This document shows positions 10,950 through 43,198 of a stretch of DNA of 64,000 nt, one piece after another. Position 1 is the first letter of the stretch. Each line of letters begins with the position of its first letter. Below the pieces are notes generated by a model. The model was not told where the DNA came from. It worked only from the letters and a program-made list of their open reading frames with translations, and made no database searches. Both the position numbers and the translations under genes were made by a program. The stretch comes from Candidatus Woesearchaeota archaeon (GTDB lineage Archaea; Nanobdellota; Nanobdellia; Woesearchaeales; ARS49). The DNA is taken from contig WJJS01000014.1 in assembly GCA_014729505.1 (NCBI GenBank), forward strand, positions 1 through 64,000, read 5' to 3'.

Positions 10950-12155
10950 ATGAAAAAGGTGGTGATAGTACTATTCCTATTGCTTACTATAATTCCTCTT
11001 AGTACAGCACAACTCGATGCTATCGATGAACTTGAACAAGACTTTAAGACGTTTGTAGGTCATGATTTAAGCATTGAACATGTAGACAAGATCGCAGTAA
11101 TCGTAGGGGAACGCATAAACCTTGCTGAACAAACAGCGTACTCCTTTGCCGCGGGAGAACTGCCAATACTGGTAGATGCCGAACAACTACAAGACAGAAA
11201 AGAAAACGAAAAACAACTGAACAAAACCAACAAAACAATCATTCTTATTGGAGGCCCATCACAAAGCACACTAACAGAAGTATTCTATTCACAGCTGACA
11301 AACGAGACAAAAAAAGACTACAGCGGAATAGTAGGAGTATATGGATTTGTAAACGGGCACAAAATAGTCATCTATTCAGATCGACGAGGATTTGAAAACC
11401 TGGCCTTTAACGCAATAGAATATTCGCCCCTCAAAGGACTCATTCCAGATAAATACATACCCCCAGCAGCAGCAGGACTTTCAGTCTTTTTGCTCATCAT
11501 CATTGATTTTATCACCAGCTATGCTGAGAATATCATTGGATTTATAGGCACGAAAAACAAGAAGATAAAGAAAGAATACAAAGGAACTCAAATCAAAGGA
11601 TTCCCAATACGTATCAGAGAATTGCTGGCCATCATGGGATGTGCAGCAATTTTTGCAGTTGCTATCACATGGACCTTTGCTGCAGGAACAACAGGATTTG
11701 CGCGAATACTTGCACTAAGCATGGGTCTTTCCAGTCTCATCTTTTTTATGACTGAACTAATTCGAATGATAGCAGCATATAGAAATCATCTTACCACGGA
11801 ATTCGTTATTTATCCATTAGGTGCTATCGTCACATTACTGTCTGCTTGGTTTGGAATGGTCTTTGGCAATCCAGGCAATGTCATATCCGAAGAAGACGAA
11901 CAACCGGGAAAAGTATACTATGTGATTATGATAGTCGTCTTTGCAATAGGTGTCGCACTCTTCCTTTACAATTTTTTCAGACCAACAGAGATCGCACAAA
12001 TTGCTATGACCACTGCAAGCACATTCTCACTTTTTGAATTCATACCGCTTTCGCCGCTTAACGGGAAAGATGTTTTTGAATGGAACAAAGGGGCATGGAC
12101 AATCACCTTCCTCTTGTTGTTACCAATCTATGTGCTGATCAATTTTGTCCTCTAA
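10950..12155 (+). CDS. Site-2-protease (M50) family membrane protein with a lost active site
   Basis: A signal peptide (residues 1-20, cut near STAQ) is followed by an extracellular domain with an S-layer-like IILIGGPSQ motif, a hydrophobic span at about 172-190, and then several membrane spans that follow the archaeal M50 pattern. In active M50 proteases a HExxH sits in one span; here the matching place reads MTELIRMIAAYRN (residues 267-279), so both zinc histidines are missing. The partner motif, normally N..P..PLDG, reads IPLSPLNGKDVF with Asn for Asp. An FGNPGN segment matches the family FAxPG motif. It is therefore probably a non-catalytic homologue. ATTTATATACC-like TATA text lies about 27 nt upstream. 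Confidence 0.6.
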   Translation: MKKVVIVLFLLLTIIPLSTAQLDAIDELEQDFKTFVGHDLSIEHVDKIAVIVGERINLAEQTAYSFAAGELPILVDAEQLQDRKENEKQLNKTNKTIILIGGPSQSTLTEVFYSQLTNETKKDYSGIVGVYGFVNGHKIVIYSDRRGFENLAFNAIEYSPLKGLIPDKYIPPAAAGLSVFLLIIIDFITSYAENIIGFIGTKNKKIKKEYKGTQIKGFPIRIRELLAIMGCAAIFAVAITWTFAAGTTGFARILALSMGLSSLIFFMTELIRMIAAYRNHLTTEFVIYPLGAIVTLLSAWFGMVFGNPGNVISEEDEQPGKVYYVIMIVVFAIGVALFLYNFFRPTEIAQIAMTTASTFSLFEFIPLSPLNGKDVFEWNKGAWTITFLLLLPIYVLINFVL

Positions 12156-13152
12156 CAGAAGACACACACGTTTTTTTAAGACGTTTAACATAGCGGGGAA
12201 TCACTTCAAGCATCTCAGACTTCAACTCCATTGAGACAGGCAATGCCTCAATAAGAGCATTCCAGTCGATCACAGGAAACACTGTTAATGTACAATCAAA
12301 TGATCGTCCTGATCGTCGCAACTGTTCTTCAAACATCATCGCTTCCTTACTCCCAAACATACGCAGAGCAGGAAACTTAGTAATTACATTAGCGCCAGCT
12401 TTTAGAAGAATACCAACATCGTTAGCTCTCCTTCCGGTAATACCTGCAATAATTCTCATACGCGGAAAAGCAATGCGCGTTTTAGCAACCCACCATGCAT
12501 AGTTCTCAATAGGCGGACCGACAGTAAAAGGAGTTCCTTTGACAGGCTTTAAAGCATAAAACGTAATCTGGTCCAAAGAATGTTCTCTAATAAAATCGTG
12601 AAGCAGATCAAGGTCTGAGACAGACTCTCCAAGACCAACAATAAACGCACAACTCTTCTTGAAACCCTCTGCGTTATTGTACAATTGCAGATAACCGCTC
12701 ATAGGTTTACTCGGACAGACCTGCTGTCGAAGGTCGGGATTAATTGTTTCAATAGACGCCACGACTCCCTGCACATAAGGTTTGAATCGTTGGAGCATTA
12801 TTTTATTCATCACTCCAAGATTTACCCAAATCTTTTCACCAAAAATATGAGAGAGAACACGAGCAATCTCCACCATTTCATCTACAGGATAAATACCATA
12901 ACCGCCAGTAATAAATTCCAAATCATACCCAAGAACCTTAGAAACCAAACCCTCAACAAAAATAGACGCGAGACGTCGACGCTGCTTTTTTGGATCCTCA
13001 GTTTGCTTAATCGTCGAACGATAACAAAACGTACAATCGCCAACACTACAATGCCAACTCAAAAAGAGACATTTTGAAAACGTCGTGGAATGAGGATGAT
13101 ATTTATTATACTCGCTGGCAGCCTTATCAAGTAATGCGGGCGTTATCTGCAT
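12139..13152 (-). CDS. Radical SAM protein, BioB-like family
   Basis: The cluster motif CSVGDCTFC (CX4CX2C) follows an FLSWH segment. It is followed by an FITGGYGIYP segment, a conserved glutamate in VVASIETINP, and FYALKPVKGTPF, all as in the TIM-barrel of biotin-synthase-like radical SAM enzymes. It should bind a [4Fe-4S] cluster and cleave S-adenosylmethionine; the substrate is unknown. The spacing of four residues between the first two cysteines differs from the usual CX3CX2C. The start at ATG 13152 is set by the shared TATA box centred at 13178.5. The 50-residue extension in the ORF track runs through that promoter and is unlikely. The 3' end overlaps the M50-like gene by 17 bases. Confidence 0.8.
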   Translation of the reverse strand: MQITPALLDKAASEYNKYHPHSTTFSKCLFLSWHCSVGDCTFCYRSTIKQTEDPKKQRRRLASIFVEGLVSKVLGYDLEFITGGYGIYPVDEMVEIARVLSHIFGEKIWVNLGVMNKIMLQRFKPYVQGVVASIETINPDLRQQVCPSKPMSGYLQLYNNAEGFKKSCAFIVGLGESVSDLDLLHDFIREHSLDQITFYALKPVKGTPFTVGPPIENYAWWVAKTRIAFPRMRIIAGITGRRANDVGILLKAGANVITKFPALRMFGSKEAMMFEEQLRRSGRSFDCTLTVFPVIDWNALIEALPVSMELKSEMLEVIPRYVKRLKKTCVSSVRGQN

Positions 13153-13170
13153 ACGATCGCTTTGAACCGC

Positions 13171-13186
13171 AACTTTTATAAACGTT
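13171..13186. promoter_or_regulatory. Shared palindromic TATA box for two divergent genes
   Basis: AACtTTTATAAAcGTT at 13171-13186. The core TTTATAAA (13175-13182) is a perfect palindrome centred at 13178.5. The plus-strand ATG (A at 13205) and the minus-strand ATG (A at 13152) both lie 26.5 nt from this centre, and both flanks read AAC outward, so the box looks able to direct leaderless transcription both ways. Confidence 0.75.
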
Positions 13187-13204
13187 ATGTTGAGAAGAAG
13201 ATAT

Positions 13205-13663
13205 ATGAGTGAAGCAAGAAGTTTGCAACAAGTGTTAACATTCAGAGAAAACGTCAGAAGAAACCTCCTACGACGAGCAAGAGCCGTCTTTAAGGAAAAC
13301 AATGATTGTCACGATTATTTCGCAGACATAACAATCGGTAGAAGAGCAACGCCAGAAGAAATTGAAAAAATAGTAGATGAAATGGAAATGGCAAATCCCA
13401 TCTATTGCTTAGGAGGACACGTGGTCTTTGGAGAACTGGAAACGACAAGAGTGTCGATAAGCGAAGCGAGATCACAAACAACTTCACGATATGTAGCAGC
13501 AGTACATCCTTATTTTCCACCGCAAAAAGATTTTGTGATAAACACTGCTCCAGACGAGGAACTCGAACACATTTCTTTAGGAACTTACGATCACGCCGCG
13601 TGGGAACGAGAATATCTCTCACGAAAAGCGCAAAGACGAGCATTACAACGAGTACAGGGATAA
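13205..13663 (+). CDS. Hypothetical protein, 152 residues
   Basis: Soluble, charged protein of unknown family with an arginine-rich first 40 residues and an acidic middle (PEEIEKIVDEMEMA). The ORF track starts at 13187, but the shared TATA box predicts transcription from about 13205, where an ATG stands, so I use the leaderless start. The last 73 bases run antisense through the 3' end of the archaemetzincin gene. Confidence 0.6.
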   Translation: MSEARSLQQVLTFRENVRRNLLRRARAVFKENNDCHDYFADITIGRRATPEEIEKIVDEMEMANPIYCLGGHVVFGELETTRVSISEARSQTTSRYVAAVHPYFPPQKDFVINTAPDEELEHISLGTYDHAAWEREYLSRKAQRRALQRVQG

Positions 13664-14121
13664 ATGCTCGTCAAACGTGGATCGGAATCCTTCATTAAAG
13701 GACAAAGCAAGTCATCTATACTGTACTGCTTAACGCGATGATGACCGATACCCGCCAAATGACCAATTTCATGAATTATAGTCTGAGCAATACCACGAAG
13801 TTTAAGACGGCCAGAAAGCGACGGGTACGTCCTGGCAAGAGCAAGACCCTCAGTCTCCCATGCCTGACCCCATATATCATAGTTTTCCTCCCGAATATTT
13901 GAACTCACCAGAGCAACAGCTAGCGGATCAAAACGTTGCACATATTCAAAATACACTTCTGCTTCAATTGGGCTATTCTTTGCACCAATAAAACGAGCTG
14001 CTTTTTGTACACGAATACGAGGCTCAAGAGCTCCAAGACCAACACCAACATACACACTGACGGTTTCAAGACTGGGTCTTGACAGTCGACAATCAACAGG
14101 CGCAATAAGTATCTTCACCAC
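13591..14121 (-). CDS. amzA: Archaemetzincin-like zinc metallopeptidase
   Basis: The core HEIGHLAGIGHH (residues about 123-134) gives the HExxHxxGxxH zinc site of metzincins. It is followed by CPLM and then CTRC, close to the second four-cysteine zinc site typical of archaemetzincins. Deviations from the family pattern are visible: the residue right after the third His is His rather than Cys, the stretch to the next Cys is longer, and it reads CxxM rather than CxM. At 176 residues the length fits the archaeal members. It is probably a soluble metallopeptidase. The gene overlaps its convergent neighbour by 73 bases. Confidence 0.8.
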   Translation of the reverse strand: MVKILIAPVDCRLSRPSLETVSVYVGVGLGALEPRIRVQKAARFIGAKNSPIEAEVYFEYVQRFDPLAVALVSSNIREENYDIWGQAWETEGLALARTYPSLSGRLKLRGIAQTIIHEIGHLAGIGHHRVKQYSIDDLLCPLMKDSDPRLTSIYPCTRCNARLCAFRERYSRSHAA

Positions 14122-42211: not shown

Positions 42212-42541
42212 TTATATGGGGAGGGGATCGTCTTGAACATACGAAAGTCCATTTTGCAGGGCGATTTCAGCTTTTTGCAATTCCGCACCAAGATATGCCG
42301 CATGATCCAAACGGGAAACAAGGTTTTCGCGAATAATCGTGTTATAAATCTCTTCAGCACTGCGGCCCTCGATAACAAGTAAAACCTTATGTTCGTAATT
42401 GCAAAAGCGAACCTTAATCAGCTTAGCAAACGGTTTAATCGTGAAATAGCCCTTTGGATCTGCGCGCCATTCCTTAAGACTGTTATAACTCGCACGAATA
42501 ATGCGAGTCGGAGGAACTTCTACTTGCGGGTGAATAATCAT
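42212..42541 (-). CDS. DUF4346 protein
   Basis: 109 residues. WRADPKGYFTIKP, IEGRSAEEIYNTIIRENLVSRLDHAAYLGAELQKAEIAL-type text and YVQDDPL match DUF4346, found in archaea also as a domain next to methyltransferase- or pterin-related proteins. Role unknown. It is leaderless from the palindromic TTTATAAA box at 42565-42572 shared with the divergent HD gene. Confidence 0.8.
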   Translation of the reverse strand: MIIHPQVEVPPTRIIRASYNSLKEWRADPKGYFTIKPFAKLIKVRFCNYEHKVLLVIEGRSAEEIYNTIIRENLVSRLDHAAYLGAELQKAEIALQNGLSYVQDDPLPI

Positions 42542-42564
42542 GGAGTACTGCTCGGGGATAATTA

Positions 42565-42572
42565 TTTATAAA
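42565..42572. promoter_or_regulatory. Second shared palindromic TATA box
   Basis: TTTATAAA centred at 42568.5 between divergent genes. The minus ATG (42541) is 27.5 nt away and the plus ATG (42593) is 24.5 nt away. No other TATA-like element is present in the 51-base gap. Confidence 0.65.
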
Positions 42573-42592
42573 GGTTATGCAGAAATATCCGA

Positions 42593-43198
42593 ATGATCCC
42601 ACATCTGAGCCGCATGCATTTCTTAGCACAATTACAGGATCACGGACTGCATCAACACCAGATAATCCTCAAAGCCATCAGTCAGGCAGTACGATCACAT
42701 ATGAATCAAAAAAGGGACGACGGTTCATCATATCTAGAACAACACATCTATCCGGTTGCCAGCACCGTCATAACATTCTGCGATCAAACAGACGAGGCAT
42801 TGACACCGTTACTTATCTGTGGCGCGCTACTGCATGATACACTAGAAGATGACAATAATCTCAGCGCAGAACACTTACACACGCTCTTCGGCGAACAACT
42901 CACCACTCTTATCATAGAAGTGACAAAACCTTGTTTGAACACGTATCCAGGCACAACAACCTGGGACAAAAGGATGGCCAGAGACAAAGAATACCTGACA
43001 AACATGAAGAAAAAAAGCCGAGAAGCACGCATTATAAAACTAGCAGATCGATTAAACAACCTGCGCTGTTTGGGCACGAGCAGGATCGCAGGAAAACAAC
43101 AACGATACGTGAGAGACACAAAACGATACTATGTGCCACTGGCAGAAGAATTCCCCTGGTTTCTTCAAAGAATAAAAAAAGAAATGAAAAAATACTAA
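42593..43198 (+). CDS. HD-domain protein like the (p)ppGpp hydrolase domain of SpoT
   Basis: 201 residues. HIYPVASTVI, GALLHDTLEDDNNLSAEHLHTLFGEQLTTLIIEVTKP and RIIKLADRLNNLRCL follow the order of the SpoT/MESH1 hydrolase domain: the HD pair, the ED motif and the final D. No synthetase domain follows, so it is a stand-alone hydrolase candidate for alarmones or related nucleotides; a general HD phosphohydrolase is the alternative. The start at ATG 42593 is chosen over 42577 (other frame) from the shared TATA box. Confidence 0.75.
   Translation: MIPHLSRMHFLAQLQDHGLHQHQIILKAISQAVRSHMNQKRDDGSSYLEQHIYPVASTVITFCDQTDEALTPLLICGALLHDTLEDDNNLSAEHLHTLFGEQLTTLIIEVTKPCLNTYPGTTTWDKRMARDKEYLTNMKKKSREARIIKLADRLNNLRCLGTSRIAGKQQRYVRDTKRYYVPLAEEFPWFLQRIKKEMKKY

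Follow-up and report, generated by a model that had tools for sequence, protein, structure and literature searches.

A single palindromic TATA box as a candidate two-way leaderless promoter between a radical SAM gene and an orphan reading frame in Woesearchaeota

Two divergent genes around one box

The window (the whole stretch of DNA analysed, 64,000 nucleotides of a Candidatus Woesearchaeota archaeon whose genome comprises 1.05 Mb in 34 contigs) contains two divergent open reading frames (ORFs) whose start codons flank one palindromic TATA box. The features of the locus are the following.

12142–13152, minus strand: radical SAM protein gene, PRK06267-like, 337 aa; stop codon at 12139–12141, leaderless start predicted at 13152
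13167–13174, plus strand: BRE of the plus gene, CCGCAACT; AA at −34/−33, core score 14.8, predicted TSS 13205
13175–13182, no strand: palindromic TATA box TTTATAAA, common to both directions; register −30 to −23 for both starts, matching the consensus register of the genome
13183–13190, minus strand: BRE of the minus gene, ACATAACG as read on that strand; AA at −34/−33, core score 13.6, predicted TSS 13152
13205–13663, plus strand: orphan ORF, 152 aa; leaderless start predicted at 13205

The plus ATG occupies positions 13205–13207, and the minus ATG appears as CAT at 13150–13152, with its A at 13152. The centre of the box, at 13178.5, is located 26.5 nt from the A of each ATG, the two adenines being 53 nt apart, as stated in an earlier note on this DNA, which had placed the box exactly midway between the divergent start codons. 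On both sides the distance falls within the 26–27 nt between TATA centre and start-codon A that characterize a leaderless promoter, and T is found at −1 of both starts. The arrangement is that of a BRE-TATA-BRE promoter, with the box midway between opposite predicted starts about 50 bp apart and a BRE on either side. The sequence 5' of the box is GCAACT for the plus direction and ATAACG for the minus direction; the AAC flanks described in the earlier note are present before the box on both strands, but they read inward along each coding strand and not outward. The AA has the same register in both directions, and the 16-bp core AACNTTTATAAANGTT is palindromic at 14 of its 16 positions. Over the 54-bp region as a whole, 28 of the 54 positions are self-complementary, with no notable symmetry outside the core.

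The protein encoded on the minus strand matches PF04055 weakly and NF004911/PRK06267 with an E value of 1.5e-78, yet under the cut-off of the latter model. Its gene is present in 25 of the 57 genomes searched, including the host. In the alignment, residues C35, C40, and C43 are invariant, and the named relatives are nearly all Candidatus Woesearchaeota. The start region of the gene is conserved in relatives, with an ATG in this place in many orthologues and a TATA box often found at the same register. A tRNA-Thr(CGU) gene precedes the radical SAM gene on its strand in at least four relatives, and the enzyme gene begins no more than about 20 nt past the 3' end of that tRNA gene (loci L019, L026, L032, and L034, as well as L161 and L204, at about positions 1406–1496). 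This placement directly after the tRNA gene suggests that the two are co-transcribed, and perhaps that the enzyme is functionally linked to tRNA-Thr(CGU).

No convincing homologue of the plus ORF was found in the 353 genomes of the order, and searches of Pfam and of solved structures gave no match. One candidate orthologue (in genome G014) was rejected, since it extends over only 47 aa with 30% identity and is interrupted by stops. A model of the protein predicted from its single sequence is poor (pLDDT 44). The coding score of this ORF, 21–23, is nonetheless twice the maximum (10.7) reached by 174 spurious ORFs of similar length. As the ORF is an orphan, comparison lends no support to its start codon, and the evidence that it is coding is compositional. 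Both members of the divergent pair are thus probably genuine genes, one with a conserved start and the other, an orphan, with a coding signal. An in-frame ATG of the plus ORF is also found upstream, at 13187 (extension 13187–13204), only 8.5 nt from the centre of the box, so that it should fall outside the transcript, although automatic annotation might wrongly select it. At its 3' end, the orphan gene overlaps by 73 nt with the 3' end of an archaemetzincin-like ORF on the minus strand (13591–14121), which has a weak NCBIfam match and in which the motifs HExxHxxGxxH and CxxC were recognized by eye.

Register and strength of the promoter in the two directions

Genome statistics were derived from about 70% of the host genome, sampled as stretches. 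The distribution of ATG around TATA boxes has a sharp peak at 26.5 nt from the box centre, and the same peak is found in seven of eight sampled relatives from the same family (GC 0.31–0.57), whereas in the eighth, represented by only 60 kb, it is located at 25.5 nt. The logo of the regions upstream of first genes consists of A at −35 to −33, TTTAWAWA at −30 to −23, and C or T at −1. In view of these peaks, leaderless initiation appears to be the norm in this lineage, and the two 26.5-nt distances described above look like two applications of that norm.

With a scoring matrix derived from the host genome, on which 7.5 exceeds the scores of 99.9% of random positions, the full-matrix scores are 13.7 in the plus and 14.6 in the minus direction, values equalled by one or two in 10,000 random positions. 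Near the two starts, no rival core on either strand exceeds 99.7% of the null distribution except for one-base shifts of the same box. Among 242 leaderless promoters (about 70% of the genome), a reverse core above 99.9% of the null is present in 12%, or in 20% if a displacement of 2 bp is allowed, with about equal frequency for divergent and codirectional neighbours; two-way potential is therefore common. A backward score as high as the one found here is reached by three of the 242. Among the matches listed, the score of the weaker direction of this site is the second highest, and both of its starts rank within the top three; of the best entries listed, no other strong case is as evenly balanced.

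The frequency of such backward potential, together with the orphan status of the plus ORF, its lack of Pfam or structural matches, and the low pLDDT of its model, would also fit a simpler situation, in which only the minus direction serves as a gene promoter, the plus direction produces nothing more than noise antisense RNA, with the orphan ORF being either spurious or expressed from elsewhere. We regard this combination as unlikely, since the plus ORF has twice the maximal coding score of the spurious ORFs, its promoter scores as strongly as that of the minus gene, and its ATG, preceded by T, is positioned exactly at the leaderless register. It is also highly improbable that the main role of the palindrome is to bind a dimeric regulator, as an operator lying over one promoter. 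Symmetry at 14 of 16 positions is plausible for a dimer site, but the palindromic bases coincide with consensus positions of BRE or TATA, and the 1.05 Mb genome has no second copy of the 16-bp core, whether exact or with one mismatch.

Recurrence of the spacing

The earlier note had proposed that the box between divergent ATGs be sought throughout the genome and compared with chance. With up to two mismatches, the pattern CAT-N22-TTTATAAA-N22-ATG occurs at 37 sites in the host genome, compared to five for the reversed pattern, and only the 13152/13205 site matches it exactly. In 193 genomes of the order, the exact in-register pattern was found at 135 sites, and off-register controls at 58 (left spacer of 18) and about 95 (left spacer of 26), from which we estimate that perhaps a third to half of the exact sites exceed one-sided coincidence. 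ORFs of at least 50 codons are present on both sides in 16 of the 30 exact sites that were checked. The counts of the off-register controls show that one-sided cases are frequent, but that the arrangement discussed here is a pure coincidence of an AT-rich octamer with two ATGs, unrelated to transcription, is hardly credible in the face of the matrix scores, the matches to BRE and initiator in each direction, the two coding ORFs, and the lack of an alternative promoter near the starts.

In the first 457 kb of the host genome, 12 of the 58 sides of TTTATAAA boxes (20%) have an ATG at 26.5 nt. Independence of the two sides predicts about 1.2 double-sided boxes and one was seen, so that this coincidence needs no extra coupling. 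An excess does appear in the distances between divergent genes. With starts assigned from the coding signal alone and the range of 50–55 nt fixed beforehand by the site itself, 9–10 of 143–151 divergent pairs in the host genome fall into this range (the 13152/13205 pair being counted when the plus ORF was called), compared to 2.3–3.1 expected from the flanking distances (P 5e-4 to 5e-3). In the eight relatives, with stretches fetched for a known site left out, the count is 4 of 202 pairs against about two expected, in the same direction and not significant. Shared boxes constitute a minority, at about 7% of the divergent pairs of the host genome (about 148). Start distances of 72–79 nt are also piled up in the host (15–17 pairs versus about 7–8 expected), as would be expected if paired back-to-back boxes favoured a certain spacing; this second mode was rejected when it did not replicate in the eight relatives.

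The radical SAM gene shares a box with a divergent partner in five other Woesearchaeota as well, with starts 52, 53, 54, 54, and 55 nt apart, and the five partners are unrelated proteins. Judging by a reading of their sequences, made without database search, two of them look like ATP-grasp-type proteins, and the others look like a GNAT-like acetyltransferase, an RlmD/TrmA-like methyltransferase, and a membrane protein. The window contains a second candidate for a shared box, at 42541–42593, where two ATGs located 52 nt apart surround ATTTATAAAG; its scores are weaker, 4.1 and 5.1.

Proposed mechanism and relation to known promoters

The 16-bp BRE-TATA-BRE core is, in our judgement, most probably a single bidirectional archaeal core promoter that gives a leaderless mRNA each way. 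The minimal two-way leaderless promoter that the earlier note envisaged is supported, at the level of prediction, by the 26.5-nt rule and by strong scores in both directions, and it further fits the lack of a rival promoter nearby, the presence of two probable genes, and the recurrence of the architecture. We infer that both genes are transcribed from it, with leaderless starts, and that initiation in one direction excludes the other. In such a mechanism, TBP would bind the symmetric box in either orientation, and the direction would be set by TFB reading the AA-containing BRE on one or the other side. RNA polymerase would start about 26 bp past the box centre, on the A of the ATG both ways, and each initiation would produce a leaderless mRNA, for the orphan 152-aa protein on the plus strand or for the radical SAM enzyme on the minus strand. 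Since a single box cannot hold two initiation complexes, these would be mutually exclusive at any instant and initiation would alternate, with co-expression of both genes, averaged over time, at comparable strength.

We can speculate further, although we consider it possible rather than probable, that promoters with one box recur in Woesearchaeota as a fixed module, in which leaderless translation forces the starts sharing a box to lie 53 (51–55) nt apart. If this were true, the two proteins would be under an either/or switch, and a conserved promoter would repeatedly acquire new divergent partners, orphan genes such as the present one included. The site also offers a minimal, very symmetric natural test case for the choice of direction by TBP and TFB in archaea; since the box itself lacks polarity and its two BREs differ little, small changes in a BRE should swing the ratio of the two transcripts. 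For the annotation of leaderless archaea, divergent starts 51–55 nt apart with a central TATA suggest one promoter serving two genes, a rule that can correct start codons.

Symmetry-driven divergent promoters were reportedly described in bacteria and archaea by Warman et al. in 2021 (doi 10.1038/s41564-021-00898-9, as cited in PMC10268837 and PMC12825309), and the Woesearchaeota site resembles them in that its direction is ambiguous owing to a nearly palindromic core element. The bacterial cases rely on the −10 element, and their two starts are separated by 18 bp (PMC10268837), whereas the promoter described here is of the TATA/BRE type. As in Haloferax volcanii and Sulfolobus, where most genes are transcribed from the start codon or from a few nucleotides away, the predicted starts coincide with the start codons; in the parts of that source dealing with this subject, leaderless genes are treated singly and a box common to two genes is not discussed (PMC4983044).

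The closest counterparts are the bidirectional BRE-TATA-BRE promoters of Pyrococcus furiosus, which likewise have a single TATA midway between opposite starts and a BRE on either side (PMC6640164). Their starts are 49–50 bp apart, compared to 53 nt between the predicted leaderless starts of the Woesearchaeota site, and one of them, PF1918, with starts 49 bp apart, is transcribed nearly equally both ways in vitro; the authors explain this by the near symmetry of TBP, with TFB setting the direction via the BRE (PMC6640164). In that organism, 49 of 442 head-to-tail genes have a very strong antisense signal within the 100 bp upstream of the start, with a peak at about 50 bp (PMC6640164). The second transcript studied there is mostly non-coding antisense RNA (PMC6640164), whereas here both predicted directions lead directly into coding ORFs. 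Bidirectional BRE-TATA-BRE promoters are thus already known, with in vitro proof in P. furiosus, and the site is not a new type of element but an unusually clean and highly symmetric candidate within that class. It is mildly novel in two respects: predicted leaderless coding genes begin without slack on either side, and the arrangement recurs in Woesearchaeota.
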